DNA of 64,000 nt from the NCBI GenBank assembly GCA_922989275.2, contig OV277863.1, positions 48,156,999 to 48,220,998 on the forward strand, written 5' to 3'. Position 1 is the stretch's first letter. Each line of letters starts with the position of its first letter. The notes under the pieces were generated by a model that saw only the letters and a program-made list of their open reading frames with translations, ran no database searches and was not told the DNA's origin. Both the position numbers and the translations under genes were made by a program. The stretch is from Gari tellinella. Taxonomy: Eukaryota > Mollusca > Bivalvia > Cardiida > Psammobiidae. Shown here piece by piece: positions 39,950 through 58,099 of the stretch.

Positions 39950-39980
39950 AATAGGGACGGACAGTCGGAATATATATATA

Positions 39981-40090
39981 TGTAGGACTCAAATCGAGGG
40001 CCGGTCCCAAATCGAGGGCCGTTTCGAAAATCGAGGGCTGATCCCAAATCGAGGGCCGTTTTCCAACCAAATCGTGGGCCGATTTGTAAA
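39981..40090 (+). repeat. Left terminal inverted repeat of the Ginger-like element
   Basis: It begins TGTAGGACTCAAATCGAGGG and contains five copies of AAATCG(A/T)GGGC(C/T)G at ~20-bp spacing. The reverse complement of 57297-57414 matches it with few mismatches over the first ~80 bp. Confidence 0.8.
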
Positions 40091-40283
40091 CCATATATAA
40101 TTCAGCCATACCTTAAAATTAAAACCCATTATTACAAAATTAGCTTATATGCAGGTTATAAAACGTCTCACAGATCTTTAAATAAACAAACAATATATTA
40201 ACTAGTGGAATTAACACAAATAAAATGTCCCAAAATGGTGGCGCCAAATGACGCGACGTCAAAACAAACGACTTTTGCGCAAG

Positions 40284-40291
40284 TGACGTCA
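40284..40291. promoter_or_regulatory. CRE-like palindrome upstream of candidate first exon
   Basis: TGACGTCA, 29 bp upstream of the ATG at 40321, with a related ACGCGACGTCA shortly before it. This is the consensus for CREB/ATF-type factors and is common in proximal promoters. Its function here is inferred. Confidence 0.4.
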
Positions 40292-40320
40292 CGTATTTTA
40301 CCGTTAAGTGTAAACAAAAA

Positions 40321-40400
40321 ATGGAGTCGCTTATTGACATCGGTGTCCAGTTAATACCAAAAAGAAAAAAAGTACTGTCAAAGGATCCAAATCCTAATTG
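40321..40400 (+). CDS. Candidate first exon of the Ginger-like transposase
   Basis: The ATG at 40321, following ACAAAAA, opens MESLIDIGVQLIPKRKKVLS and stays open to a stop at 40420-40422. A donor could be TG/GTTTTG at 40400-40401, which leaves two bases and would join in phase with 45638, or GA/GTAACT at 40414-40415, which would not. The peptide is basic (KRKK) and not recognised. Its place between the left terminal repeat and the integrase exons, just behind a CRE-like site, is the main support. Intron 1 would then contain the Ty3 insertion. Confidence 0.35.
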
Positions 40401-40429
40401 GTTTTGGGATGAGAGTAACTAATCTGCAA

Positions 40430-40500
40430 TACGTGTGTCGTTAGAGCAAGGGATTTGTAACATCGAGGTTCCGGGTTCGAATCCCGATAGAGGGCAAAAT
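40430..40500 (+). other. tRNA-like remnant
   Basis: It contains the B-box GGGTTCGAATCCCGAT and a rough A-box region GTGTCGTTAGAGCAAGGG. Stems are incomplete. Confidence 0.3.
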
Positions 40501-40632
40501 ATTTTTATCTTATAAAATGTTATTTTATAGACCAAACAGACGCTATGACATAATGTTTTTAAAAATAACAAAATAATCGTGTTCCAATCGATATAAATGT
40601 TGTATGATAACTTAAAGAAACAGCATAAATAG

Positions 40633-40849
40633 TGTGACGGACGTAAGTATGTGATAGAGTGAGGGGGCGAATCGGTATGAATATGACGTTTATGACGTAT
40701 GCATGATTGGAAGAGAGGGCGCGCGTGAGCGTTGTTGTGTGAGTTGGGAGAGTTGAATGGTGACAGTTGGGTGTGCAAACTAAAGGAAATAAAACGAGTA
40801 AATTGTGATTGGAGTTGTTGCTAACTTACTCAGATTGGACCACGTTACA
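40633..40849 (+). repeat. 5' LTR of the Ty3/Gypsy element
   Basis: 217 bp, TGTGACGGACG...CACGTTACA. It contains two TGACGT half-sites and an AATAAA at about 40788 that probably serves as its poly(A) signal. It has 9 bp more than the 3' LTR around GAGTTGGGAGAGTTGAATGG. Confidence 0.93.
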
Positions 40850-40851
40850 AC

Positions 40852-40869
40852 TGGTGGCAGCGGTGGGAT
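40852..40869 (+). other. Primer binding site (tRNA-Leu)
   Basis: TGGTGGCAGCGGTGGGAT, two bases after the LTR, complements the 3' end (..ATCCCACCGCTGCCA-CCA) that I recall for metazoan tRNA-Leu of the AAG/TAG type. Confidence 0.75.
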
Positions 40870-41059
40870 AAAGACCTGTATGCAGAAAAGAAAAGGGAAG
40901 TGAACTTTAATTAATATTGTAGCAATTGTTGACATTGTTTATATCTGGCTAGGCATATCGTCAGACTATAGCTATATTGACTTTGGAATTCTTTAGTGTC
41001 CCAACTGACGTTAACTTTTACAGTGTAGCCAAACAGTGCCTATGTTTAAGACGTTCTAT

Positions 41060-41362
41060 AGATATATCTTACTTCTAAGACCAAACTTCCTCTGACATCA
41101 GCCAATGGTCAACCCCTCGAAACTTGCGGTCAGGTACTATTGGCTTTTGAAGTGGCAGGGAAGAAATTTTACCACAAGGCAATAATCTGCAAGGATTTGG
41201 CACACATGTGCATATGTATTAGGAACAGATTTTCTAGGCAAGACAGGTGCATGTGTTGATTTTTCTGAAGGAACACTTAAAATTCAATCGCGTGCAACAA
41301 AGTTACAGCTTGGAAGAGGAAGTTCCTCCACCGTCTGTCGTATTACAGTCAAAAATACCGTT
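41060..41362 (+). pseudogene. Retropepsin C-terminal remnant
   Basis: In one frame TSANGQPLETCGQVLLAFEV, and in another GTDFLGKTGACVDFSEG, correspond to the second half of a Gypsy aspartic protease. The catalytic D-T/S-G half is not present upstream and a frameshift lies near 41210. From about 41222 the frame is continuous with the RT ORF. Between the primer binding site and 41060 nothing gag-like is seen. Confidence 0.6.
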
Positions 41363-42568
41363 TTGGTGCCGGGAAGGCATGAAATGCTCATACCGGGGAA
41401 AATCAAAACAAATGAGAGGGGGGTACAGTTGTCTTCCATCACAGGTGTTTTTCAGCCAAAGGTAAGATTCTCATCAGGTGATGGTCTTCTTGTGGCTCGC
41501 TCGTTAGCCACATCAAAAGAAAACCAAGTGCCTGTTAGACTAATAAATTTGTCTGACGATGATATAATGCTTTATAAGAACACTAACATTGGCACCTTAT
41601 CTGCAGCTGATTTGCTAGAGGATGCTGAAGGTGTTGTCAGAACGGGATATCCATACCAACATTCAGAGACATCGCTTGGAAGTTACTCCAGAGCAGCATG
41701 TAGCAGCTCAGGGAGTGTGTGCTCTAGGGCAGCATGTAGCAGCTCAGGGAGTGTGTGCTCCACACAACAAACAAAATGGGAGAAAAAGAAATTACTTGCT
41801 GAATGCGATATTCCAGGATCAGACTTGAACCCAAACCAAAGGTTGAAACTTGAACAATTGGTTGCCGAAAATGCAGACTTGTTTTCAAGTGGACCAAATG
41901 ACATTGGGAGAACCAGTCAGATTCAACACACAATCAGGACAAGTGATGCACCTCCTATTCGACTAGCACCACGCAGAGTCCCCATTCATCGGAAAGAAGA
42001 AGTGAAGGGGATGATTGCCGAGATGAAGGAAAATGGTATCATTCAAGCATCAGCTAGTCCATGGGGGTCGCCTGTTGTACTGGTCACCAAGAAGGATGGA
42101 AGCACGAGGTTCTATGTGGACTTCAGGAAGGTGAATGAAGTGACCAAGGCTGATGCATACCCGATCCCACGAATCGATGAAACGTTGGAATCATTAGCAG
42201 GAGCCCGCTATTTCTCAACTCTTGACTTGGCAAGTGGATACTGGCAAGTTGAGATTGACCCAAGGGACAAGGAAAAGACGGCATTTATTACTCCCTATGG
42301 GCTCTATGAATTCAATGTCATGCCATTCGGGCTTTCAGGGGCACCTAGCACCTTTCAAAGGCTTATGGAGGCAGTGTTAGCGGGTGTTCAGTATGAAATT
42401 TGCCTAGTTTATCTGGATGATGTTATAGTGTTCAGTAAGACTTTTGATGAACATATTACAAGACTCAAGTTAGTGTTTGACAAATTTAGGATAGCTAATC
42501 TTAAGATGAAACCGAGGAAATGTAAATTTGCTAGGACCAGTGTCACTTGTCTCGGACATGTTGTTTAA
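41363..42568 (+). pseudogene. Ty3/Gypsy pol: protease-RT linker and reverse transcriptase (ends in nonsense codon)
   Basis: After a linker (with a 39-bp tandem duplication at about 41682-41760, SRAACSSSGSVC twice) the RT domain runs from about 41950. Motifs are SPWGSPVVLVTKKDGSTRF, FSTLDLASGYWQVEI (first catalytic Asp), MPFGLSGAPSTFQRLM, and YLDD at 42410-42421 (catalytic Asp pair). The reading frame meets TAA at 42566-42568 in the middle of the conserved sequence following CLGHVV, and continues in the same frame beyond it. A single nonsense mutation therefore disables the polyprotein. Confidence 0.9.
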
Positions 42569-43678
42569 GATCAGGGAATAGCTACTGATCCCAGCAAGAT
42601 CTCGGCAATTCTAAACTGGCCAAAGCCAAAGAATGTTTCAGAAATTAGGCAGTTTCTAGGTTTAGCCTCATATTATAGACGGTTTATTAAAAACTTTGCT
42701 GAATTAGCTTCACCATTGAACAAGCTGTTACAAAAGAAAGAAAATTTTGTTTGGTCAGAACGATGTAATCAGGCATTTGAAACCTTAAGAAATTGTTTAG
42801 TCTCGTCTCCTGTGTTGGCATATCCAACTACACAGGACAACTTTATACTTGACACAGATGCGAGCAATGATTCTATTGGAGCTGTACTTTCACAAGTGCA
42901 ACATGGAGTGGAAAGGGTGATAAGTTATGGGAGTCGAAGCCTTTCAAAGGCAGAGAAGAATTATTCAACAAGGAAGGAACTTCTTGCTGTAGTCTATTTC
43001 ATGAAAAAATTCCGCCCATACTTGCTTGGCAGGCAATTCAATGTTCGCACAGATCATGGTGCTCTGAAATGGTTGTGGGGATTTAAAGATCCAGACGGTC
43101 AGGTAGCAAGATGGCAGACTCAGCTCGCAGAGTACTGTTTTGAGATTGAGCACAGGCCTGGCCGTGTACATGCCAATGCGGATGCTCTTTCCAGAATTCC
43201 AAATCAAAGTGGACAAGAAACAGTGTCTGTTTCAGTTACATCCTGTTTAACCAGTTCGAATTGGACGGATACTATTTCTTCAGAAGAGATGTCAGTTAGA
43301 CAAAAACAGGATGATGTGCTAAGCCGTCTTATGGCCAAGGTTCTTGGAGAAGTTTCGATTTCTGAGAGTGAAACAACTCAGGTGAATCTTAAACGTTGGA
43401 GAAAGCAAATGTCGCTCTTAGAGGTTGAAAAGGGTATCCTGTATCGGAAGGACGGGTTATCCAGGCAAGTAGTGCTGCCTCTATCGTTGCAGAAGTTTGT
43501 TTTGCACAATATTCATGGAGACTTCTCCGGTGGACACTTGGGTGTTACCAAGACTGCTGCAAAAATATCAGACAGGTTTTACTGGATTGATTGGAGACAG
43601 GATGTGGAAAAGTTTTGCAGGGAATGCGAGACATGTGAAGAAGGAGGACTCCTTGCAAGCCAGCTCGGGCACCCCTGA
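42569..43678 (+). pseudogene. Ty3/Gypsy pol: RT connection, RNase H and integrase N-terminus
   Basis: Same frame as the RT part. [20 protein letters not shown] is the conserved post-RT segment. RNase H residues are visible in [44 protein letters not shown] and [10 protein letters not shown] His-rich integrase zinc finger follows ([17 protein letters not shown] ... CRECETC). A one-base deletion near 43640, after CETC, throws the frame, which then stops at 43676-43678. Confidence 0.9.
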
Positions 43679-44934
43679 TGTCAACACAAGCATCAGGTCC
43701 ATTGGATATTGTGGCTATGGATATTTTGGGTCCATTGCCAGAGTCCTATTCTGGCAACAAGTACATATTAGTAGTGTCAGACTTGTTTACCAAATGGACA
43801 GAGGCTTATGCACTTAGGAATCACAAGGCCAAAACAGTTGCGAAAAAGGTGGTTGAAGAATTTGTGTGTCGATTTGGATCACCTTCGAAGATATTGACAG
43901 ACCAGGGGAGGGATTTCGAGTCCAAGCTTTTCAAAGAGATGTGCAATCTGCTGGATATTGAAAAAATAAGAACCACACCATACCATCCACAGTGTGATGG
44001 GCAGGTTGAACGGTTCAACAGGACACTACTGGATATGCTAAGTAAGCATGTAGACAAAGACCAGAGGGATTGGGATACTCATATTCCACACCTCATGATG
44101 GCCTACAGATCCAGTAAAAATGAGTCGACACAATATAGTCCAGCTTTTCTTATGCTAGGACATGAACTGAAGTTACCTGTGGACATCATATTAGAAAATC
44201 AGCCACTGTTTACTGATAGGAATCAGTATGTCGAACAATTTTCAAAAGGGTTGCAATCGGCCATCCAGTTGACAAGGGAAAACTTAATAAGGGCACACAA
44301 CAAGCAAAAGGAAGGATATGATGAGAAAGTCCATGGAAGGCCTTATGAGGTAGGAGAGGAAGTTTGGTTACATGAGCCTGCAGTAAAACCAGGACTTTCT
44401 AAGAAACTCCATTCGCCATGGTCTGGCCCTTTTGTTGTCCTAAAAAGGATCAATAGTGTCAATTACAGGATTCGAAAGGTAGGCACCCGGCTCAAGAAGG
44501 TGGTTCACTTCAATCGATTGAAGCCGCACCATGGTGGGAAAACTTGTGATCGAGCAAATCACAGTGCAGCTGATTATAATGCTAGGGTTCCGAGTGGTGA
44601 GTCGCATGTTGCAGCTCCCGCTCCAGCCCGTATAGACTTCACAGGGACAAAATACTTCAGTGGTGAGTCGCATGTTGCAGCTCCCGCTCCTACAGAAATG
44701 GCGAACGAGGAAGATAGCGTCGAGAGCGACTGGGAGGAAGTTAGTGTGGGTCACGGATCTGATGGGGAAGAATCGGACCACAAAGAGGCTGAGGAAGAGG
44801 AACCAGAGGAGATTGTTTCCGAAGCTGAAATGGACGAAGTCGCTTATGGTTCAGGCGAGAGAGGGAGAGCCCGGAGAGAAGTCAGACCTCCAGTGTGGAT
44901 GAAGGATTATACAGTGATGGACGATTCAGATTAA
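43640..44934 (+). pseudogene. Ty3/Gypsy pol: integrase core, GPF module and acidic tail
   Basis: Read in the frame after the deletion, upstream of the ATG at 43678. The catalytic triad is in DIVAMDILGPLP, LTDQGRDFESKLF and GQVERFNRTLLDML, with 35 residues between the second Asp and the Glu. The C-terminal module has WSGPFVVLKRINSVNYRI and KKVVHFNRLKPHH. The tail holds a duplicated SGESHVAAPAP segment (about 44590-44700) and a very acidic stretch before a stop at 44932-44934. It keeps all integrase residues but would not be translated as part of pol without frame correction. Confidence 0.9.
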
Positions 44935-45148
44935 GCTGTCCTTATTGAAACGTTATGACGGTTATGTGTATTATATATTCTTGCAACTTGGGAATTAATG
45001 ACCCTTAGCCAACAGTATCTAGTTAAATAATTTGTTATCTATTTGGGTTGTTTTATATTTTTTTTGGTTCTTGAAGATGTTACATAGTTGTTGAATGGAT
45101 GATTGATGAATGTTATAAGTATGAGTGAAGACCGGGGGCGTGTCTTTA

Positions 45149-45164
45149 AGAAAGGGGGGAGTAG
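45149..45164 (+). other. Polypurine tract
   Basis: AGAAAGGGGGGAGTAG lies directly before the 3' LTR and primes plus-strand synthesis in such elements. Confidence 0.8.
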
Positions 45165-45372
45165 TGTGACGGACGTAAGTATGTGATAGAGTGAGGGGGC
45201 GAATCGGTATGAATATGACGTTTATGACGTATGCATGATTGGAAGAGAGGGCGCGCGTGAGCGTTGTTGTGTGAGTTGAATGGTGACAGTTGGGTGTGCA
45301 AACTAAAGGAAATAAAACGAGTAAATTGTGATTGGAGTTGTTGCTAACTTACTCAGATTGGACCACGTTACA
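45165..45372 (+). repeat. 3' LTR of the Ty3/Gypsy element
   Basis: 208 bp, otherwise identical by eye to the 5' LTR apart from the 9-bp deletion around GTGAGTTGAATGG. Confidence 0.93.
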
Positions 45373-45402
45373 ATAGTAAAAAAAAAAGTGAAAAAATGTA
45401 CG

Positions 45403-45480
45403 AGTATTGCATGGGATTCGAACCAATGACTGTACGGAAAAATAATCTATAGTCATCTTCCTTACCACTTGCGCTAAATA
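45403..45480 (-). other. tRNA-like remnant
   Basis: On the minus strand, TTTAGCGCAAGTGGTAAGG and GGTTCGAATCCCATG resemble A and B boxes 45 bp apart. The stems are poor, so this is probably a pseudogene or SINE head. Confidence 0.3.
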
Positions 45481-45637
45481 CCTGTCGATATTTGTAGAAC
45501 CGGGCAATGCTATATTTTCTCGGTGCCGATGTGGTTACAATGTGCGTTCTCGTATAAATGATAACGAAGTGTTCCGAAGCTATATTTAGAAATGCAACAA
45601 AGTGTGTAATTATGCTAATAGAGGTCACCAACGTCAG

Positions 45638-45908
45638 GTCAATATTGTCGAAAACTACTGTGAACGAGAAAAAGTGCAAAAACATTCTTGAACACTATAT
45701 TTATGAAGAACAAACGCGGCTATTATACAGGAGAAGTCGGGAAGTTGAGGAGAGTCACCGTAGATGCCTAACTAGAGAAGAAGTGGTATGTAAGATACGA
45801 GAAAGCCATGCATTGGACCACAGGAAGGCAACCTCTCTGTATGAGTCTTTGAGATCAGCGTATTTTCCCATTGTTAGAGACACTCTAACAAAGTTATTCA
45901 AAAGTGAG
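45638..45908 (+). CDS. Ginger-like transposase, exon with zinc-binding N-terminus
   Basis: Open from 45558 through 45908, then a donor GTAAGA. The likely acceptor is ACGTCAG (ending 45637); the ATG at 45558 is an alternative start. It reads NEKKCKNILEHYIYEEQTRL and later SHALDHRKATSLYESLRSAY, ending KSE. The HALDH pair plus the CEQC at the start of the next exon gives an H-X3-H...C-X2-C zinc motif, as in the N-terminal domain of Gypsy/Ginger integrases. The exon ends in phase 0. The Ty3 insertion ends about 265 bp upstream. Confidence 0.65.
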
Positions 45909-46322
45909 GTAAGAGCTCATTCATAATGTATCAAGAGTATTAATAACATAAGCTTTACAAATAGCGTAGTACACAAGACAAACAGTGAAACAGACTATAC
46001 ATCATTATGACGTATGATCATGACGTTCCTGTTTACATATGGATTTACAGTTAAACCCGTGTCAAGCGGCGCCATTTCTTTGTTGCAGTAGATTTACTTG
46101 TTGTAACGCCTATTTAATCAATGAATTCCCTATTTGAGGCACGATTAAAGTGAATAAACGCATTGAATAGGAACTACTTCAAAGAAAATTAGCTATATCC
46201 TATGTACCATGACATGTGAAAAAATCGTGGCCTGACCCGACTCGTACCAAGGGTCTCTGGCTTACCGTATAACTAGTACACGTATATGAATTACACATAA
46301 TTCTGCTATACATTGACTAAAT

Positions 46323-46380
46323 GGTTTAAACCCTCGCCTTCCAAGCGGGATGTCTCGGGTTCGATTACCGCCCAGGTCAC
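46323..46380 (+). other. tRNA-Gly-like 3' half
   Basis: TCGCCTTCCAAGCGGGA looks like a Gly(TCC) anticodon arm and CTCGGGTTCGATTACCG like a T arm. A 5' half is not recognisable, so this is a truncated pseudogene. Confidence 0.4.
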
Positions 46381-46426
46381 TGTAGTAAGTCAAAACTACT
46401 TACATCCGACAATAGATTGAAGATAG

Positions 46427-46489
46427 GCAATGTAAACTCAGATTAGACGCCACATAATGCAGCTTCTGATCAGAGTCGACACCGTTTAC
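46427..46489. repeat. Hairpin core, degenerate
   Basis: GTAAACTCAGATTAGACGCC and a rough complement to GACACCGTTTAC. It lies in an intron of the transposase gene. Confidence 0.45.
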
Positions 46490-46733
46490 TAACTTGAATT
46501 TACATTTAAAATAAAACTCAACAAAATATATTTGTCTTGATAAGTCACTCTGGTAATCCGGTACTTTCTAGTATTTTCTTAAATATTGTTATTTAAAATT
46601 GAAAGTGTCTGTTGTGTTGTTTAATGAGTTGCTTAGTTCAAAACACTTCCAACTAATTTACACTTTTTTAATGTTGAACACTGTAAACTATCATACCTTG
46701 ATATTCTGCATCACGATATTCTACTTGATACAG

Positions 46734-47004
46734 ATCAAATGTGAGCAGTGCATGTGCGCCACTGAATTGCCAAAGACAACTCGTGCACGCCGGCCAATTC
46801 CCGCAACCTATCCGAACAGTCGCTGGCAAATCGACTTAAAGAAGATGCCCGCTTGCCGAGGATACAACTATGTTCTCAATATAGTTGACTGTTATTCGAG
46901 GCTGGGTTTTGGGAAGGCGCTGAAAGGAAAGACCGCAAAAGAGGTGGCCGAGGCAGTAATACATTTCATATACATTTACGGAGCCCCAAGGATACTGCAA
47001 TCAG
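46734..47004 (+). CDS. Ginger-like transposase, exon with first catalytic Asp
   Basis: A 271-bp exon, acceptor TTGATACAG, donor TCAG/GTAACA. It reads IKCEQCMCATELPKTTRARR, then NSRWQIDLKKMPACRGYNYV, VDCYSRLGFGKALKGKTAKE and YIYGAPRILQS. This is the first half of an integrase core (rve fold): the Asp in WQIDL is the first catalytic residue, and the GAP..LQSD block ends at the exon boundary. It leaves one base of an Asp codon finished by the exon at 49017. The ATG at 46599 is intronic. Confidence 0.85.
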
Positions 47005-47254
47005 GTAACATTCCCCCGTTTATTGTTTTTGCAATTCATAATAGAGAATATACATCTAAGACAGAAAATACATGTACATGTATAAGTGAACCTTCAATGA
47101 ATCACGTGTGACTCCGCATTAACATTTTGGACATCTTTGCGATTGTCAGCTAATTGGGCCGACTTCGTTTTATAGTATAACATCACTATCTCGATTCGAA
47201 CACAGGGTACAATCACTGCAGCACATGATTCTAGAGTTAATATACGGCCAGGAA

Positions 47255-47370
47255 TAAGCTCAAACCTCACCGATAAAATGCTTGAGAACGTTATCCGGCT
47301 CAAATCAAACACCTAACAATATTGGACACAGTCCATTTGCATTTCAAGCGTTTGATTTGAGCAGAAAGCT
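47255..47370. repeat. Palindrome, family F, copy 4
   Basis: ATAAAATGCTTGAGAACG and TTTCAAGCGTTTGATTTGAG lie in an inverted arrangement with mismatches, within the transposase intron. Confidence 0.45.
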
Positions 47371-47441
47371 TAAATAAGACCTATCAAAAGCTCAACAAAT
47401 ATCTCAGGCCCATGCCAAGCTGTATAAGCTTCGACAATGTA

Positions 47442-48995
47442 TTAACCCCTTCACTGTTATGACGTCGTCGATTTTAAACGAGAGCACCGCAAACGGGTGC
47501 TGGACGCTCGACTTTCATATACTTGAGACGGCTATATTTTTCAAACTTAAAGAATGTGTATGGGTGTTTAATGCCCTATTGATCATAGAAGTTTGTAAGC
47601 AACAACAACTTAAACATACTTGGACAGTCTACATTCCACTTAAAGTAAACTATTAGTCAAAAGAAGGACAATATCTTTGCCTGCTTTACCTGCCTTGTTG
47701 TAATGCGTTGCCCTTTTGAAACTAGACAAGTATTCAAATATATTGGAAGTTTGAAATTAATAACTTTCTACGGTTACTGAATAATTTCAAATACAAATTC
47801 TTAGTCAAACAAGGGCAATAACTCTGCAATGACAAATCTCATGGTTATCTGCTGTGTTGAAAGGTGATGCCCTTTTGAAACTGAACAAGCATTAAAAGTT
47901 TCAAGTTAATACCTATTGTAATTATTGAGAAATTTCAATTTACAAGTTTTATGTAAATAAAAACAAGGGCAATAACTCTGGAATGGCAAATCCCCGGTCA
48001 CCTTTCTAGATTGAATGAGTTGCCCTTTTGTTATAACACAAGTATTTAAAGTTTCAAGTTAAAACCTTTGACAGTTATTAAGATATTTCAATTTACAAGT
48101 TTTAAGTAAATATATCAAGGGCAATTACTCTGGAATCACAAATCACAGAGTAACCTACCTTGTTGTAATGAGTTGCCCTTTTGTTAACACAAGTATTTAA
48201 AGTTTCAAGTTAATATCTTTCATAGTTATTTAGATATGTTAATTTACAATTTTTAAGTAAATAAAATAGGGGCAATAACTCTGAAATGACAAATCCCTGG
48301 ATTACCTGCCTTGTTGTAATGAGTTGCCCTTTTGATACTAAACAAGAATTCAAAGTTTCAAATGGATACCTTTGATAGTTATTGAGATATGTTAATTTAT
48401 AATTTTCAAGTAAATAAAACAGGGCAATAACTCTGGAATGGCAAATCCTAGGATTACCTGCCTTGTTGTAATGAGTTGCTCTTTTGATACTTAGTAACTA
48501 TTCAAAGTTTCAAAATGGATACCCCTGATAGTTATTGAGATATGTTAATTTATAATTTTTAAGTAAATAAAACAAGGGCAATAACTCTGAAATGACAAAT
48601 CCCAGGGTTACCTGTCTTGTTGTAATGAGTTGCCCTTTTAATACTGAACAACTATTCCAAGTTTCAAATGGATACCTTTGATAGTTATTGATAAATGGAC
48701 TCTTACAAAAACCTTAAACAAAAAACTTAACCGACGCAGACGCTGACGCAGACGCAGACGCTGACGCAGACGACAGGGTGACGACAATAGCTCGACTTTT
48801 TGAAAAAGTCGAGCTAAAAATTGCCGTCTGCTTTTATTAACAAATTTTATTGTTTATGCATATTCACTTAAAAATATTGAAATGAATTATAAACAGTTTG
48901 GATCCTGACCAGACGCCCTATTATGTGTCGTCTGATCAGGATCCAAACTGTTTGCAAATAACCCCTGTACTCTGGGTTCGGCAGTGAAAAGCTTA
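47442..48995. mobile_element. J-family MITE split by tandem-core element P2
   Basis: The left end TTAACCCCTTCACTGTTATG (47442) and the right part TTGCCGTCTGCTTTTATTAA (48821), core 48890-48955 and GGCAGTGAAAAGCTTA belong to one J element, interrupted at about 47477-48820. Its right end lies 21 bp before the exon at 49017. Confidence 0.6.
47477..48820. mobile_element. Tandem-core (pearl/Helentron-like) element P2
   Basis: It starts AACGAGAGCACCGCAAACGG with subterminal GACGCTCGACTT, which is inverted in the right hairpin GCTCGACTTTTTGAAAAAGTCGAGC followed by TAAAA (hairpin arms of ten bases). Six monomers of about 150-157 bp carry GGGCAATAACTCTG at 47811, 47967, 48117, 48267, 48421 and 48575, then a (GACGCA)n/(GACGCT)n stretch at 48733-48775. 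The short ORFs are not genes. Confidence 0.7.
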
Positions 48996-49016
48996 CGACT
49001 AATTCATGGATTTCAG

Positions 49017-49309
49017 ACAACGGTCGAGAGTTCACGAATTCCGACTTGGAGAAGGTGACCAAAGAGTTTGAAAGCATACAGATGCACGGGCGGTCTTATC
49101 ACCCCCAATCTCAGGGCAGAGTGGAGCGATTCAACCGAACGATGACAGACTACTTTCGCCGGACGATGGTTGACGACACTAACTGGGTTTCATCATTGGA
49201 CCGTTTCTATTATTACTACAACAACAGAGTCCACAAAGCCACTCGCCCACAGACACCATACCAACTATTCTTCAGGAGGCCGAACTTTGCCTCACCATTA
49301 AACGATCAG
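49017..49309 (+). CDS. Ginger-like transposase, exon with second Asp and Glu of D,D35E
   Basis: A 293-bp exon, acceptor GGATTTCAG, donor CAG/GTAAAG. Two bases complete the Asp codon, giving SDNGREFTNSDLEKV; HGRSYHPQSQGRVERFNRTM supplies the Glu, exactly 35 residues after that Asp. It continues TNWVSSLDRFYYYYNNRVHK and TPYQLFFRRPNF, typical of the integrase C-terminal helix region. HGR..HPQSQG.VER is characteristic of the cellular/Ginger integrase group. It ends in phase 0. Confidence 0.88.
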
Positions 49310-49519
49310 GTAAAGCTTGTCACTTACTCTCGTACTCTAATGTACTTTTTACGAAAGAAAAGATACTGTCATATACACATGTCATTAGACAATGTCCTAC
49401 ACAATTACTTCTCAGTTGTCAACTGGTTCTGTGTTTGCCTCTAGCTATGATAATGTTAACAATGATAAAAATGGTTATACAATGGTAACGATAATACAAT
49501 GAATACGACCACGGTGATG

Positions 49520-49925
49520 GTGTTAGTCCTCATGATGATGATGATGCTGACGATCATTATGATGTCACTAATAGTGTTGCATCCCCAGCTAAGTCCTTCG
49601 GATGAGACTTTATAAACATAGGTTTTGATGTATCAGTGCTTTAAACTGAGCATCCCAAAGAAACAGAGAATTCTAGCAATGGTATGAATAGGGCTCCCGC
49701 CCGCGTTTTCTGTTTCCATTTTCCTCTCTCTGGGGCGTCCAATTAGCCGAAGTATAACGAAAACGAACAAACATAAGGAACTTGGAGTCTACCACGATGA
49801 AGGTGTATTTATTTTTGATGATGATGATAATGCTTTTGATAAGTGTGAGATTATTATTCATGTTGTATGTGTTGTTTATGATGATGATGATGATGACGCG
49901 GATGATGATGCTAATGACGAATATT
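49520..49925. repeat. ATG/GAT microsatellites in intron
   Basis: Short (ATG)n/(GAT)n runs occur at about 49531-49555, 49818-49832 and 49880-49915. The intron is otherwise unremarkable. Confidence 0.7.
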
Positions 49926-49960
49926 AAAAACCATATGTAACATAATTTACCACACTGTAG

Positions 49961-50042
49961 GTTCCATATTCAAGTCTGTCGAAGGATGAGAGACAGTTTC
50001 TGGAGAGCGCCCACTTAGACGTGGAGGAGAATGACCATGAGG
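49961..50042 (+). CDS. Ginger-like transposase, 82-bp exon
   Basis: Acceptor CCACACTGTAG, donor GTATGC. It reads VPYSSLSKDERQFLESAHLD then VEENDHE and leaves one base, in phase with both neighbours. Acidic linker downstream of the catalytic core; no known domain. Confidence 0.75.
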
Positions 50043-50300
50043 GTATGCATACTTACCAGTCATTAACTGTCTGTACTCTTGGGTTCTGTATCAATAATTG
50101 AACGAATAGGAAATGTTGGTTTATAAAACGAATGTCTTATAACTAGTTCTCTCGAGCCTGTACACATAAGTAATAGATCTTTTCCAATCTATTGTCGTTA
50201 CAAGGAACATTAATTGCGATTGGGCAACAGCGTGGGTTATCTACGTAGACGTTATTATTTCCCATTTGACTCGTTTACGTTAAAACGGGTTTTTACACGG

Positions 50301-50365
50301 CAAACAGTTTGGAGCCAGATCAGACACCTGGTAGCCCGGATTCTGATCTGGCTCTTAAATGCTTG
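50301..50365. repeat. Hairpin core in intron
   Basis: CAAACAGTTTGGAGCCAGAT and a degraded complement, close to the A-family version of the core. Confidence 0.55.
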
Positions 50366-50485
50366 ACACTCAGATTAAAAAGAATTGTTAGAAATGACAT
50401 GTTAAACATTTTTTACAACGAGCTTCGTTTCATTTGCATACATGTATAACAACTGTTAGCATATTGTGGTGTTATTTCTTTTCAG

Positions 50486-50542
50486 TCACAGACTTGGAGA
50501 CTGAGATGTCCACAGAGATTAGCGACAGCCACAATGCTGCAG
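50486..50542 (+). CDS. Ginger-like transposase, 57-bp exon
   Basis: Acceptor TTTCTTTTCAG, donor GTGATT. It reads (V)TDLETEMSTEISDSHNAA and keeps phase 1 at both ends. Acidic, Ser/Thr-rich linker with no known domain. Confidence 0.65.
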
Positions 50543-50701
50543 GTGATTTATTTTTTATCAAAAGTACACTCGTTTTTAAACGAATTGTAGTTTTCCTGGG
50601 TATGTCATTCTTTAGAACAATATAATATATTTAAATTTGTTTAACCCTATACTCCCAAGATACGCATTTATTTATGCTTTTCGGTGGATTACTGGAAAAT
50701 A

Positions 50702-50775
50702 GCAGTGGATTATCACTTGGTAATCCACTGCAGTGGATTATCACTTGGTAATCCACTGCAGTGGATTATCACCAA
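50702..50775. repeat. 28-bp palindromic tandem repeat
   Basis: GCAGTGGATTATCACTTGGT-AATCCACT occurs twice and a half time in tandem. Each unit is itself an inverted repeat (GTGGATTA/TAATCCAC). Confidence 0.8.
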
Positions 50776-50976
50776 TCGCCGTTTTCCCCGTAGGGCTCCC
50801 CAAAAATCGTGGTCAATCGTGTCTTATCGTTATATTCCGGCAGTTACCGGTAATGTGTACGATGTAAACTTGGGGCTCAACACGGGGTAAATCATGTACA
50901 TTCGCTTTCACAATTGTCTAACAATTTCGTTTAAAAAGTGGCTAAAAAGCATAAATAAATAGAATAATTGTATTTT

Positions 50977-51110
50977 TTCAGTATAAGATCGAATTTAATC
51001 CATTTCGTGAACATCAGACTGTTATATTTTCACTCGTGGCTTCGCCACTCGTGAAATATAACGTCTAATGTTCACTCAATGGATTAAATTTCTATCTTAT
51101 ACTGAAAAAA
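50977..51110. repeat. Foldback with ~55-bp arms
   Basis: Arms TTTTTCAGTATAAGATCG ... and ... TATCTTATACTGAAAAAA pair along most of their length and meet at GTGGCTTCGCCAC (about 51035-51047). A small hairpin MITE. Confidence 0.75.
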
Positions 51111-51244
51111 ACAATTATCCTCTATTTAAACGCAGTTAATTTAGTCCTCCATTGAAGATAAATATTCAATTTCATAACATAATTTTGGTAGCTTAACGCA
51201 GACATAAAGTTATAGATCTATAGTGTAACGTAATTATGTTATAG

Positions 51245-51325
51245 ATGCTGTTGTGGTTGAAAAGGAATGTACACCAGAGGCAATGGAGGATACTTTAAAT
51301 ACTGCCGTGGAAAGAATGCCCGCAG
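51245..51325 (+). CDS. Ginger-like transposase, 81-bp exon
   Basis: Acceptor TTATGTTATAG, donor GTAAGT. It reads (D)AVVVEKECTPEAMEDTLN then TAVERMPA, phase 1 at both ends. No known domain. Confidence 0.65.
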
Positions 51326-51684
51326 GTAAGTGTCAATTACTGTAGATTGGCTGTTGTCATATAATTTCATTTGGTTTTGGTAGGTTTTTATTTTTAGAAT
51401 TTGTTACCATTACTTTCTGTTATCTTTAAACAGACAGGAACGTGTCCATTGCTACGTGTTTCCGACCACTGTCGAACAATCCATCAGTTACATATAATTA
51501 AGAATGGGTTAAAGACTGGGTCCAGACGATAACTTCCAGTTTCTGTTAGGTGGTTTTCCATCTAACCAATGTCACAGTTACCATTGTTTCTACAGTTTAA
51601 AAGCTGTATATCACCAGAATTACCTAGCATGTGACGGTGCGATGTAGGTAAAACGAAACCATAATAAAACTGCATTATTTTCAG

Positions 51685-51776
51685 ATGCCTCCCCAGTGAA
51701 TGACCAGCATAATTGGTCAACTATGTCGATACCAATGCCGACCCTGTCAGAACAGAGAGGTCCATCAAGTAATCCA
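51685..51776 (+). CDS. Ginger-like transposase, 92-bp exon
   Basis: Acceptor CATTATTTTCAG, donor GTGAGT. It reads (D)ASPVNDQHNWSTMSIPMP then TLSEQRGPSSNP and changes phase from 1 to 0. No known domain. Confidence 0.65.
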
Positions 51777-52009
51777 GTGAGTTTTAATCTTAATTATCTT
51801 TTGTCAGTTAGTCATTATTAAAGATACTGAAATCAAATATTTGCCTGAAAATGTTTATTTTGTGTGAAAAGATGCCAGGTGCCTACATTAGGCTTACATG
51901 TAAATGTTAATTAAGGAAAATTATTTACATTTTAAATACACGGGAATATAAATCGAGACCATGTGGACATAAGTCACCAAAATACACCTCTTAGTTCGAC
52001 ATATAAACT

Positions 52010-52100
52010 GCATTAATACATGGTTGGTCAAGACGAACATAACCATATTTCAAAGTTAAAAATTGGCTTAATCACGATATATCGAAGGTCGACTGTACAA
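52010..52100. repeat. pogo-type MITE fragment
   Basis: CATATTTCAAAGTTAAAAAT and ATATATCGAAGGTCGACTG are family E parts with the middle lost. Confidence 0.5.
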
Positions 52101-52166
52101 GTTTTTAACGTTATATCTAACGTGACGCTTTTACGTGGATTTGACGTCATAGATGTATTTTTACAG

Positions 52167-52253
52167 ATGTGTCATGTTAACGAAGGAGAATCTCCTTTTC
52201 CCAACGGACCTGTATTTGACCCTGAGGCCGAGCCTGTAGAACACGAGTTTTCG
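52167..52253 (+). CDS. Ginger-like transposase, 87-bp exon
   Basis: Acceptor TGTATTTTTACAG, donor GTAAGG. It reads MCHVNEGESPFPNGPVFDPE then AEPVEHEFS, phase 0 at both ends. Acidic linker, no known domain. Confidence 0.65.
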
Positions 52254-52857
52254 GTAAGGCATTAAGTACATGATATCCAAGATACTAAAAGTTAATATTT
52301 CTGAGTGAAATGATTTATACACTTTCAAATGTTTTATGAATCCCCTGCCAGTAAATAGCGTGTGTTTTCAGTATTGCTATTATAGAACGAATTGGATAAA
52401 AAGGTACGTTGAGAGCCTTTGACGAACAACATATCGGTATATCCAACCAGTTCAAGAAATTTTATCTAAACCAAATTTGTTAGCATTGTCTAATTATGAT
52501 ATTTTGACACTTATTTCCGTTTTGAGATTTAAGTCAATGTTAGAACATGGCATCATTATGACTTCAAAATAAAATATTTGTTCATGCTACAAGCGATGTT
52601 ATCAGTCTTATTATGAGTTACGGTTAAGACAGCGAACCCTGTTTTGCGGCATTCGGCAATAGGGAAAACTGATATACACCAGTTAAAGAATGTTTGGTTG
52701 ACACGCGGTGATCCAAGTTTGTCAAACTAAACTGTAATTTTTTTAAAAATGGCGAAGTAAAACACTTTTTGATAACTTGGACTCGTAAAGTATTACTATT
52801 CCATGCACAGTGTGCTAAAGGTTTTGTTGTGCATTGTATATTTTGCATGTTTATCTG

Positions 52858-53111
52858 ATAAACCTTTTACCCCATATGCTGTTTCAAAATGTGAAGACAG
52901 ATGACCACTTAAAGCAGGTTGGAAGTAAAGCAGAATGTGTCTTAAGACAAATTCTGCTTTACTTTTAACCTGCTTTAAGCTACTATTTGCTAGGATATAG
53001 GAAGAAATATTTTTTTGGGCACATATTACTGACTGTATAATTGAACTATTTTCTTCAGTGTGGGAACAGATTAAATGTTCTAAACGTCGCTTCTATGGGG
53101 GAAAGGGTTAA
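52858..53111. mobile_element. MITE family D copy in transposase intron
   Basis: The left end is decayed (TAAACCTTTTACCCCATAT) and the right end GGGGGAAAGGGTTAA intact. Hairpin arms (GCAGGTTGGAAGTAAAGCAG and complement) lie at about 52912-52979. It ends 37 bp before the next exon. Confidence 0.7.
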
Positions 53112-53148
53112 GATAATTAGATCAATGTGATTATTCTTTATGTTGCAG

Positions 53149-53238
53149 CCAGCCGTACATGAATATTACCGAGGTATGTACAAGCGCAGATTTAGCGACC
53201 CTGTGAGGAACACTACAGGCAAGGAAAATCAGGAGCCG
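53149..53238 (+). CDS. Ginger-like transposase, 90-bp exon
   Basis: Acceptor TTTATGTTGCAG, donor GTATGT. It reads PAVHEYYRGMYKRRFSDPVR then NTTGKENQEP, phase 0 at both ends. Basic segment (KRRFSDP), no known domain. Confidence 0.7.
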
Positions 53239-53856
53239 GTATGTTTGTCATGACTCAATGTTTGAGACAAGCTAATCTCAACCGAATCTAGAAATAAACA
53301 TTTATTTCACTGATTTTGGGGGAGAGGGGCTAAATATTTTTTTTATCTATTCTAGAAGAGGTTGATAACAGTTTGTCTTAAAGATCGATGAGAAACAGCT
53401 TCTCTTTCTCACATGAACAATGCTGTCTAGTTAAATATCAATATACAATAGAGGATCTTTCTAAAGTGATCATTATTTTTCATTTTTAATAAAGGAGTTG
53501 ACTAAATTAATATGACGGGAACCTATGCGAGAGTCATATTCATTTTAGTCAACGAGTTTATTAAAAATAAAAAATAATTAGCAACGATGTGAGATTCTAT
53601 TTATCACATAACAGTTTAAGCACCTATTAAATTGATTGAAGCCGTATTTTGTAGACCCACCGCTATATATGTTTTCCGCTAAAACGTTTCTTTGATTACG
53701 TTAACGTCATTACAAAAGACGTCAATTGGCGTCCCGTTACATGCAGCGCTTGTGATCGAACAGGTTGGACAGGAACCAAAACAAGGATATTCCACTTGTG
53801 TATCACGATATTTATATAATTTCTTTATGTCACTATGAGACCGCAAGTTATGTGAT
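53239..53856. other. Intron sequence with a foldback
   Basis: ATTATTTTTCATTTTTAATAA and its complement (about 53470-53580) form a loose foldback around TATGACGGGAACC. Otherwise AT-rich. Confidence 0.45.
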
Positions 53857-55998
53857 ACAAGAGGGCCATGGCCCTTAATTCGCTCACCTGAGGTCATTGT
53901 GCCTTAGCTTAATAGGCAAGACAACATTTTAATATAGCTGTAAATGGAATTATCTTCCAGACAAAAAAAACCATGACAAATTGGAATAACTTAAACAAGA
54001 AATATCTTTAAAAAAGATATTCGGCGGAATGAGTGGTTGAACTAAGGCTATATAGATGGGTGTGCAAAATTGAATTAAATTGAGGTTTTCAAAGAATATA
54101 TATCTTGGATTGAAAAGCAAAAAATACAAGTATTCAATTGAAACAGTAACTTTTATTTAAAATGCAAAACTATCATGTACAAAAATGCAAAACAAAACAA
54201 TAATTTAACTCATATCCTAGCTACTGGTAGGAGATCCTCACATTAATCTATTGTTCCATTCATAGAGTTTCTTGAAACAAACTTGTACAGATACAACAAT
54301 CTACTGTACTTCACTCTTGTAAATAATGATGAAACAACACAATTGTGTTTAACTCACTTGAGGCTATTTATATATAAAATATTGCTTTTAATGTATGGCA
54401 AATGTGTACAAATAGTTAACAATTAAAACACCTAGCTTCCTCTGTATATCTATAAATAGATTTCAGATCATATATTAAAATAGAAGCATAATTTTGTCAA
54501 CAGTGGAACAGTGTAGTAAATAGCCAGCCTGTATCTCTAAATTTTACACCCACAGTCCACATCATGTAAAACTGTAATGGGACATAAACCAGCCTACAGG
54601 ACTCCAGATAAGAGTGAGTACTCTAAACAAATCACATTTTTTCACCTCTTTTAGCACCAAACCCTATGGTATTACCACTCATTTTGATTGTCTTGAAGAG
54701 ACAATTCATATGTATAGTGACACCACAGGGTTTAATGCACAAATAAAGATTTTAAGTTTTGAAACAATTCCCTTATCTGGAGCCCTGGCTACTATCCAAT
54801 TAGACTATTCAGTTTCAACAGGTGCTCTTAATTCTAAATTTCTGATCAAATATTATTGGTTGAAATGTGTGGCCAAATATAAAGTGTGTCTAAATAGAAA
54901 ACAGTCAGCTCCGCCGAAAAAATATTGTTGGCAGAGTTATGGCCCTTATCCATGACACTTCTTCTTATCAAGCTACATGTATTTCCACATGATTATTTAT
55001 TGCGCACTCTGCTTTACTTTCAACCTGCTTTAAGTTATCATCTACTAAGATATAGATACTATTTCTTATATCTTACATGTTTATGACTATATAAAGTGGA
55101 ATTATTTTCTTTTATCTCAAAGACAAGAAAATATGACACTGGGAAATATCTAAAAAATGACATTGACCTTTGTAGGACATGACCCAAGTTATAAAGTTTC
55201 TAACTTTAACAAAGTTATGGCTAAGATTAAAGTTGTGGACTGACAGACAAACAAATGGACAAACAGACAAAAAAGCAGACAGACAAAAACAATATGCCCC
55301 CAACTGCAGGGCATAAAATATAGCAGACACCACCATATGCAACCTCATCAGCTGACCAGCTGACCTGAGTTCAGTTATGTAACTCTGCCAGTAGGAAATT
55401 TGGCTAGGGTCTAACTCTTATAATGCTGAATTGCTGTCTGCTATACATATTTTGAATGTGAATTATGACCTAGATATTTAACCGACCAGAACCATTTGAA
55501 CAAACTAGGTAAAGGACATTTAGAAGTGTCACCATGCCAAATATCAAAGCTCTGGCCATATCAGTTTCAGTGGAGAAGACGTTTGAAATTTTCACTATAT
55601 AACTCTATGTAAAACTGTGACCCCCGGAGCGGGGCCAATTTTGACCCCAGGGGCATAATTTGAACAAACTTGATAGAGGACCTGTAGATAATGTTATGTG
55701 CCAAATATCTAAGCTCTGGCCCTTGTAGTTTCAGACAAGAAGATTTTTTAAGATTTCCTTATTTTTTCACTTTGGTTGCCATAGCAACCAGAGTTCTATA
55801 TTGTTTTCAATTATTTGAACAAATTTGAAAGAGCTTGACCCAAGGAACATTCCTGTAAAGTTTGGTTGAAATCTGTTCAGCCGTTTAGGAGAAGATGTCA
55901 TTTGAAGCAATTGTTAACGACGACGGACGACGCACGACGACGGACACAGGGCCATCCCAATAGCTCACCTTGAGCCTTTGGCTCAGGTGAGCTAAAAA
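53857..55998. mobile_element. Tandem-core (pearl/Helentron-like) element P4b in transposase intron
   Basis: It starts ACAAGAGGGCCATGGCCC like P4a and ends AGCTCACCTTGAGCCTTTGGC-CAGGTGAGC region with TAAAA. The parts 53857-54000 and 54900-55990 match P4a in order. 54000-54900 is an extra insertion block containing the repeat shared with 2740-3180 and MITE L3. ORFs at 54614-54955 and 55112-55348 are not genes. Confidence 0.65.
54598..54790. mobile_element. MITE family L, copy 3
   Basis: Ends GGACTCCAGATAAGAGTG and CCCTTATCTGGAGCCCT with an inner imperfect palindrome ACTCATTTTGATTGTCTTGA. The clearest copy of the family. Confidence 0.6.
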
Positions 55999-56240
55999 AC
56001 AAATTTCACCATCGCAAAGCGTTTCATTTCTTGATGCACGAATCATCGAATCAAGTCAACGTCACATGTAACAGCGCGTGCGTTTTATAAAAAAATTATA
56101 TTGAGAGTTACTTTATTTGTGTACATTATGTGTGTTATTGACATTCTAAGCTTACACTAAAATCGACAGTACACATCAACTAGAATGTATTGGTATTGTT
56201 GGTTTTTGATATTAAAGTATAAGTCCTTTATAAATTTCAG

Positions 56241-56546
56241 CCTCTCAAAAAATCAGTCACACTGATACAGAGGACAAATCTACACAGAGAAATGTACCCG
56301 TTAGAGCAGATTTCATCAAATTTGCAAGACGAGGTTGTGTTCTACCCAAATGTACAAGAGGCCGTCTACTACAGACTTAATCCGACTCTCTCTGCGGGAA
56401 CAGCTTTCCTGCAGACGGGTTTTTACAGACCAGGCGTTTGTACGGAAGTTATTAAAAAGCCGTCTGGTACAACGTACAGAATCAGAGACAGCAGTACGAA
56501 TGTGTGTCATATAGTTAATAGATATCAGTTAAAACAGTCGTTTTAA
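56241..56546 (+). CDS. Ginger-like transposase, last exon with integrase C-terminal module
   Basis: Acceptor TTATAAATTTCAG, stop TAA at 56544-56546. It reads PLKKSVTLIQRTNLHREMYP, later SAGTAFLQTGFYRPGVCTEV and TTYRIRDSSTNVCHIVNRYQ. The last part looks like the small beta-barrel (GPY/F-type) module that follows the core in Gypsy and Ginger integrases, where 'G.V..V....YRIR......H.NR..L' recurs. With the exon at 45638 as the first, the ten exons would encode about 542 residues without a stop. No OTU or Ulp1 protease domain of the sort reported for Ginger1 is seen. An AATAAA at about 56887 may be the poly(A) signal. Confidence 0.8.
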   Translation, partial: PLKKSVTLIQRTNLHREMYPLEQISSNLQDEVVFYPNVQEAVYYRLNPTLSAGTAFLQTGFYRPGVCTEVIKKPSGTTYRIRDSSTNVCHIVNRYQLKQSF

Positions 56547-56581
56547 CAAACTCATTCTTACTACAAAATGATATTTAACTA

Positions 56582-56774
56582 CGGTCGAACTGCGATATCT
56601 CGAAATCTGTTAAGTCGAAGATACCCGTAATTCAAAGTTAAAACGTGACTTAGCCACGTTTTAACTTTGAAATACGGATAATTTCGACATAACCTAGCAT
56701 GAAATAATGAAGTTCCTGTGTCGACATATCAGATAGTTCGAGTTAAGCGAGTTTGAGATATCGGAGTTTGACTG
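56582..56774. mobile_element. pogo/Tigger-type MITE, family E, copy 3
   Basis: 193 bp, same length as E1, flanked by TA, ends CGGTCGAACTGCGATATC / GATATCGGAGTTTGACTG. It lies in the 3' untranslated part of the transposon, 35 bp after the stop codon. Confidence 0.8.
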
Positions 56775-57296
56775 TAGTTCAATCCTATTCTTTCCCATTT
56801 AAACTTTTGTGGTTAACATGAGTTAGTTAAACCGACTGTTTTAGTCTTAGCGTGATTCGGTTGTGTTCATTCATAGATAATTTGTAATAAATAATCATAA
56901 TTGTCAGACTTTGGCCGGTTTCTACATTTGTTGGCAGTGCGTTGTGTTTGGTTTCATTTTCAAACTGCCAATGTACACACATGAAACGTGTTAATATTGT
57001 TTTCATACATTTCTACTTATTTGATAAAATATCGTCATATTAAAATGTGCTTCTCGTGTACATTGTCGTTATGTTGTTTATCACTGAAGTGTTAATTTGT
57101 TTCACATCGGCTCGCGATTTTCGAATTGGCATCCTGATTTATCGCGGAAGCCCGTTCGGAAATCGGAGCTCACAAGTTCGAGTTGGTAGAAGAGTGTACA
57201 TCACAAGATAAAAAACCCGACCATTTTAGCTCCGAATTTATTGAACACAATCCATATTTTCGCATATTGACACCTTGAACAATACCAATACAGTTT
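56775..57296. other. 3' region of the Ginger-like element
   Basis: AT-rich and non-coding. A short inverted pair (CGGAGCTCAC... / TTTAGCTCCGAATT) lies near 57160-57240. Confidence 0.4.
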
Positions 57297-57414
57297 TTTC
57301 AAAACGGCCCACGATTTGGGATTAGCCCAAGATTTTTGGCCCTCGATTTGGGATCGGTCCACGATTTTCGAAACGGCCCTCGATCTGGGACCGACCCACG
57401 ATTTGAGTCTTACA
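57297..57414 (-). repeat. Right terminal inverted repeat of the Ginger-like element
   Basis: The reverse complement starts TGTAAGACTCAAATCGTGGG and continues with (A/G)ATCG(A/T)GG(G/A)(C/T)CG-type units at ~20-bp spacing, matching 39981-40090. It is followed by TATA at 57415-57418. Confidence 0.8.
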
Positions 57415-58099
57415 TATATTTTTATTTTTTTTAAAAAACACCAAACTAATCATAAATAACATATTTAACTTTTCTGATGGAGTTTTTTTTAATATAAAAT
57501 CATATACATATATGAAAATATATGAATTATTTTACTTTGCAGAGCCCTGGGCCATATATAAAACCCCTTTAAAATATAAACTCAAATTGTTGATTTAATT
57601 GATAAGTCCCATTACCAAAATTACCTTAAACTTTATTGATTGTTAACAAATATACGTATACCAAACCGGCAAAGGAGTGACGTTTATAATTATAACATAT
57701 TGAATTAATAATGTTTTGAATGTGTTTTATGCATATCAAATGTGTCAATGAAATGTGTTGTCTGCATGTTGAATGTGTCAATAGTTGATTAACTAGCAGA
57801 TCATATCTGCAAAGAAGGTACTTTATGACAGATTTAGATAAAACTTCACTTAGATTCCTGCTTAATCTTATTTTAAAATTAATTTTTTAAAACACTTAAA
57901 TAACTTTTAAGTTGCTTTTTAAACAATTAAGTGGAGAATAGCTTCTATTACACATATGCGCCGCAAAAATGACCGACATTCACAAAAACATTTTTCGAAA
58001 AATGAAAAAAAAAGTTAAGGAGCGGAGGGAAAAACTAGGGTCGGTCAGGTTACCGGAAACAGATGTATATCTTTTATTTTGCCTAAATACAGAAAAATT
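57415..58099. other. AT-rich region with a small basic ORF
   Basis: The ATG at 57969 opens MTDIHKNIFRKMKKKVKERR then EKLGSVRLPET before running into the local repeat. It might be an exon or a retroelement remnant. It is not recognised and no splice pattern supports it. Confidence 0.3.

Follow-up and report, generated by a model that had tools for sequence, protein, structure and literature searches.

What does a stretch of bivalve DNA represent that is bounded by inverted repeats, encloses an integrase gene split over many exons and also harbours the genes of a Gypsy retrotransposon? This question is raised by a locus of Gari tellinella, studied here in a window of 64,000 nucleotides (GenBank assembly GCA_922989275.2, contig OV277863.1, positions 48,156,999 to 48,220,998 of the forward strand), in which the element occupies positions 39981 to 57414; window coordinates are used unless a contig is named. 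A preliminary description, made from the letters of the window, had read the element as a Ginger-like DNA transposon of 17.4 kb with a complete, intron-rich integrase gene, and had suggested that it may define an undescribed Ginger subgroup in molluscs. The element is a real transposon and its family has recently been mobile. The reading we favour, with a probability of roughly 85%, is that the window contains a full-length but disabled member of a Ginger2-like family of about 8.8 kb, which carries a single ten-exon gene for an H2C2, D,D35E transposase.

Ends, target sites and copies of the element

The inverted arms at 39969-40057 and 57338-57426 are 90% complementary across 89 bp at a spacing of 17.3 kb, and gapped alignment extends the match to about 130 bp, giving terminal inverted repeats of approximately 115-130 bp. 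The outer ends lie exactly at 39981 and 57414, with TGTA...TACA tips, TATA flanking both and the family end sequences TGTAG and TGTAA, and the bulk of each repeat is made up of AAATCG(A/T)GGG-type units, of which the left repeat has five and the right one six.

39977..39980, no strand: left target-site repeat TATA (flank comparison with other copies)
39981..40110, + strand: left terminal inverted repeat, starting TGTAGGACTC, five AAATCG-type units (self-alignment, genome matches)
57290..57414, - strand: right terminal inverted repeat, finishing GAGTCTTACA, six AAATCG-type units (self-alignment, genome matches)
57415..57418, no strand: right target-site repeat TATA (flank comparison with other copies)

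The window's own genome (1.598 Gb in 80 contigs) was searched and the best candidates were scored, so that all copy numbers given here are lower bounds. Scoring of 40 out of 204 left-end candidates yielded 14, including the window, that match at 99-100% over all 130 bases, and 40 of 232 candidates were scored for the right end. At least 30 of the 40 left ends are paired in proper orientation with a listed right end, at spacings of 2.2 to 21.6 kb, and for one of the ten unpaired left ends (C5:30482978) the right end was present in the retrieved DNA. Ends of lower similarity (86-91%) belong to related families, whose paired members mostly measure about 4-5 kb. For full reading, 20 kb was retrieved at ten of the 13 other loci in the 99-100% class, the remaining three being taken as 3-kb pieces. 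Both ends fall at the same bases as in the window in all ten retrieved copies, which fixes the boundaries, the tips and the outer TATA as first described. These ten copies diverge from one another at 0.03-2.15% of aligned bases, and recent movement of the family follows from this low divergence. On contig C5, two deleted copies that are 5,955 and 5,956 bp long and lie about 55 kb apart in unlike flanks differ at 2 of 5,955 bases. The region 30.28-30.48 Mb of the same contig contains three family copies inside 200 kb, two of them near-identical, a clustering that may reflect local hopping.

Matching 4-bp repeats flank all 11 copies read (window included); ten of the copies have TATA and the other TATT, much as the preliminary description had expected of a TATA target. 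The six-base target is ATATAT in the ten TATA copies and ATATTT, one base off RTATAY, in the eleventh; at 23 of 29 readable loci (30 left-end loci were extracted) TATA stands directly before the left end. The TATT copy is inserted in a dispersed repeat, and when its flanks are joined through a single TATT they match at all 40 places scored, out of 1,462 candidates, with 96-99% identity over the junction, 38 being identical in length and two shorter by one base. Three of three retrieved unoccupied sites read through with one TATT. Since unoccupied sites in the same genome hold a single TATT, the 4-bp duplication at this copy was made at the target, and the empty-site check that had been proposed is thereby borne out for it.

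The catalytic exons are missing from nine of the ten retrieved copies. Four copies have one deletion junction in common, corresponding to window 46202 to 51085, from which it follows that the deleted forms have themselves multiplied and therefore that their transposase must come from elsewhere. Ends without an integrase between them had been named in advance as a finding that would speak against a transposon; such copies do exist, but they derive from this element by internal deletion and have target duplications of their own, and hence do not count against its mobility. By analogy with retroviral-type integrases, the transposase would join the TGTA/TACA ends to RTATAY-like sites by strand transfer with a 4-bp stagger. 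It may recognise the ends through the repeated AAATCG-type units, and the donor would be excised then or thereby in a cut-and-paste reaction.

Native length and the transposase gene

A copy at C10:34249819-34258618 has a length of 8,800 bp; three blocks of the window copy are missing from it.

40415..45653, no strand: insertion 1, a Gypsy long terminal repeat (LTR) retrotransposon at 40633-45372 within another repeat; missing in the 8.8-kb copy
47479..48815, no strand: insertion 2, six direct repeats of about 153 bp; missing in the 8.8-kb copy
53863..55994, no strand: insertion 3; missing in the 8.8-kb copy

The native autonomous element is thus about 8.8 kb long, and the 17.4 kb originally reported is this element plus three later insertions. 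The first of these cuts exon 1 and has replaced 80 bp that the 8.8-kb copy retains there, so the window copy is a broken, disabled full-length copy and the description of its gene as complete had to be dropped. The Gypsy element is delimited by TGTG...TACA termini and flanking ATAG, and its LTRs show no mismatch in 212 aligned bases and one 9-nucleotide length difference; it is young, and nested in the repeat that interrupts the transposon. Insertions 2 and 3 each terminate in a hairpin followed by GAGCTAAAA, and may represent one repeat class.

The predicted gene model, built from splice sites and homology, has ten exons in both the window and the 8.8-kb copy, in keeping with the ten or more anticipated. 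In the window GT is found at nine of nine donors and AG at nine of nine acceptors; the integrase core has D,D35E spacing, with the codon of the second catalytic D split by intron 2. The 8.8-kb copy encodes a stop-free protein of 604 amino acids over its ten exons, with GT at nine of nine donors and AG at eight of nine acceptors, and this protein matches the rve core at an E value of 3e-16. Comparison with this copy places the true start codon in the window at 40321, with exon 1 broken after 40414 and resuming at 45654; an ATG at 45558 was rejected as the gene start, as it falls within inserted DNA.

40321..40414, + strand: exon 1 from the true start codon to the break made by the insertion (comparison with the 8.8-kb copy)
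45654..45908, + strand: exon 1, second part, with the first two H2C2 residues (this and exons 2 to 9 from splice sites and the 8.8-kb copy)
46734..47004, + strand: exon 2, two H2C2 cysteines and the first catalytic D
49017..49309, + strand: exon 3, with the E and the second catalytic D, whose codon intron 2 divides
49961..50042, + strand: exon 4
50486..50542, + strand: exon 5
51245..51325, + strand: exon 6
51685..51776, + strand: exon 7, 27 nucleotides below its length in the 8.8-kb copy
52167..52253, + strand: exon 8
53149..53238, + strand: exon 9
56241..56546, + strand: exon 10, with the stop codon and a conserved C-terminal domain modelled as barrel-like (splice sites, homology, structure model)

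No match to an OTU or Ulp1 domain was found up to E 1 in the full 604 amino acids, in agreement with the lack of a protease domain noted earlier, and no literal GPY/F motif was seen by eye in the same protein, an observation tempered by a sub-threshold match to Integrase_p58_C (E 0.12) and by the barrel-like model of the C terminus. A structure model of the last exon, with a mean predicted local distance difference test score (pLDDT) of 73.9 and about 90 in residues 61-100, has strands arranged in the manner of a barrel; its likeness to Tudor and chromo domains is seen only at Foldseek E values of 0.011 and up. With nothing below E 0.001 in that search (best 0.011), the modelled barrel fold is tentative.

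Elsewhere in the window, a large array of tandem repeats, 41 bp in period, runs from 14169 to beyond 17530, and dispersed palindromic repeats around AAACAGTTTGGATCC...CAAACTGTTTG occur at 15 places from 224 to 50371.

Relatives of the transposase and rival readings

The spliced protein, used as a query, matched 66 proteins with E values of at most 1e-3, of which the named close relatives come from Mercenaria, Mytilus, Magallana and Plakobranchus, the best being a Mercenaria protein that is 67% identical across 53% of the query. The label of one relative is, we presume, that of a sponge transcript set. The HHCC and DDE residues are invariant across 17 relatives. Two trees were built, the first of 64 rows, six of them with long end branches, and the second of 69 rows, with four rows dropped and nine proteins named KRBA2-like added, for which the bootstrap had not settled. 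A mollusc-sponge clade of 18 rows has support of 100/100 in both; in both it is separate from the KRBA2-like group, from the 13 rows of Gypsy and from five of the six OTU-bearing rows, which we infer to be Ginger1. The last exon is conserved in the clade. In neither tree does the sixth OTU-bearing row, P0050, join the Ginger1 cluster; the chromodomain row P0141 lies among the Gypsy rows. The approximately unbiased (AU) test rejects neither a union of the clade with the KRBA2-like group (p 0.498) nor one with those five OTU-bearing rows (p 0.405). An earlier AU test of the former union (p 0.0003) was set aside, as rows nested among the KRBA2-like proteins had been forced out. Two KRBA2-like integrase sequences of the same genome, at C4:55516628-55518474 and C5:26058985-26059413, exceed 50% identity.

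Considering where the integrase comes from, the Gypsy element inside the repeats might suggest that it is the remnant of a decayed retrotransposon. That element, however, carries an integrase of its own, which groups with the Gypsy rows and not with the window transposase, and the 8.8-kb copy possesses the transposase and both ends with no Gypsy between them, leaving this origin with practically no credence. Hardly more can be granted to a domesticated host gene surrounded by chance or unrelated repeats, although a multi-exon gene with a conserved core, whose relatives bear host-gene-like automatic names, might well give that impression. Many copies share the ends and the target duplications, and an unoccupied site has been found. 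When the genome was searched at protein level, with 140 of 1,692 candidates scored, catalytic exons at more than 60% identity came to light at five loci: the window, one on C10, a pair on C13 and a fifth on C6. Each of these is flanked by a left and a right family end. An integrase locus standing free of the repeats, which the preliminary description had envisaged in other bivalves as the mark of a domesticated gene, was not seen among these loci within this genome. The other strong matches in that search cover exon 1 only, and the remainder, at 27-38% identity and mostly within long open frames, are taken for Gypsy.

The alternative that deserves most thought, though we consider it doubtful, is a third Ginger lineage, sharing the reaction and target of Ginger2 but having its own mollusc-sponge transposase clade and its own C-terminal domain. 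It would accommodate the strong support for the clade and its separation from the other groups, as well as the conserved last exon with its barrel-like model, and it gains from the observation that the named Littorina saxatilis proteins fall in the KRBA2-like group, outside the 18-row clade, so that published Ginger2 might itself correspond to that group. If it were true, the chromo/Tudor-like C-terminal barrel might help to place insertions in chromatin. The ends and target nevertheless match published Ginger2/TDD, the grouping with KRBA2-like proteins survives the AU test, and the comparison on which a third lineage would stand contains no reference Ginger2/TDD sequence. This last point bears equally on the Ginger2-like reading that we prefer, in which the filing with Ginger2/TDD was made by ends, target and lack of a protease; among the matches listed in three protein searches, two of which gave the best 120 of 247 and of 543, none is named TDD or Ginger2. 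Several further observations weigh against the preferred reading. The trees do not settle the sister group of the clade, excision is unobserved, and six of the 29 left flanks differ from TATA (TATT 2, CATA 2, TATG 1, ATTA 1). No clearly intact copy was seen: exon 1 is cut in the window, the 8.8-kb copy has CAA instead of AG before exon 5, and one C13 copy shows a 1-nucleotide length change in exon 2. Between the window and the 8.8-kb copy, 24 differences in 1,708 exon positions compare with 118 in 6,946 others (p 0.46), and because exon and non-exon divergence show no difference, selection on the transposase gene is not demonstrated.

Comparison with known systems

The Ginger groups were described by Bao et al. 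2010 (PMC2836005). In that account Ginger2/TDD elements have TGTNR ends, 4-bp duplications, RTATAY targets and an H2C2 plus DDE transposase without GPY/F and YPYY, and protease domains are described for Ginger1 only; a Ginger2 element from the snail Littorina saxatilis is included. Ginger2 has also been termed an intron-containing group, and a captured Ginger2-like transposase has been linked to (AT/TA)n insertion (PMC10871703). A later study, drawing on 30 autonomous Repbase Ginger2 entries, gives duplications of 4 or 5 bp (PMC10045372). As the TATA-type target, the lack of a protease and the introns are thus all already known for Ginger2, the argument for an undescribed subgroup built on them fails. 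By its ends, its target and its want of a protease, the window family would very probably be filed with Ginger2/TDD, as a new family of a described group; among the listed matches in the open-access literature, one listing of which gave 20 of 139, none stood out as treating bivalve Ginger2 families.

The family shares with Ginger2/TDD the TGTNR ends, the 4-bp duplication, an RTATAY-like target, H2C2 and DDE motifs and the lack of a protease and, as judged by eye, of a literal GPY/F, and its inverted repeats fall within the published 45-297 bp (PMC2836005); introns are likewise common to both (PMC10871703). It differs in its length, 8.8 kb against 2.75-6.7 kb for the published autonomous elements (PMC2836005), and in its ten exons and conserved C-terminal domain. 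What it adds is a young Ginger2-like family that is sharply bounded, its ends being known to the base, and that has a proven target duplication and numerous shortened copies. A bivalve survey counted Ginger via open reading frames (PMC10294476), and surveys relying on a transposase in a single open frame would catch only pieces of a ten-exon gene; elements of this kind may therefore be undercounted in molluscs.

Likenesses to Ginger1 are the integrase-type transposase, TGTNR ends, 4-bp duplication and introns, of which Ginger1 has up to four in the published table (PMC2836005). Ginger1, however, has CCGG/CCGT targets, an OTU or Ulp1 domain in nearly all cases, being absent from one published member, and GPY/F (PMC2836005). 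The window family has neither these targets nor these domains, and no literal GPY/F was seen in it by eye; membership of Ginger1 was rejected on target and domains. The KRBA2-like proteins, so called by automatic annotation, resemble the window transposase in their rve integrase core and in bearing the same sort of automatic names, but form a separate tree cluster and have a C terminus that is cysteine-rich by eye, where a Tesmin/TSO1-like match in P0044 (E 0.36) is below the cut-off. IS3EU/GingerRoot elements mostly have TA..TA ends and 6-bp duplications (PMC10045372), in contrast to the TG..CA ends and 4-bp duplication of the window family. Unlike a Gypsy LTR retrotransposon, finally, the window element has end repeats that are inverted rather than direct, and the Gypsy genes within it sit in a later insertion.

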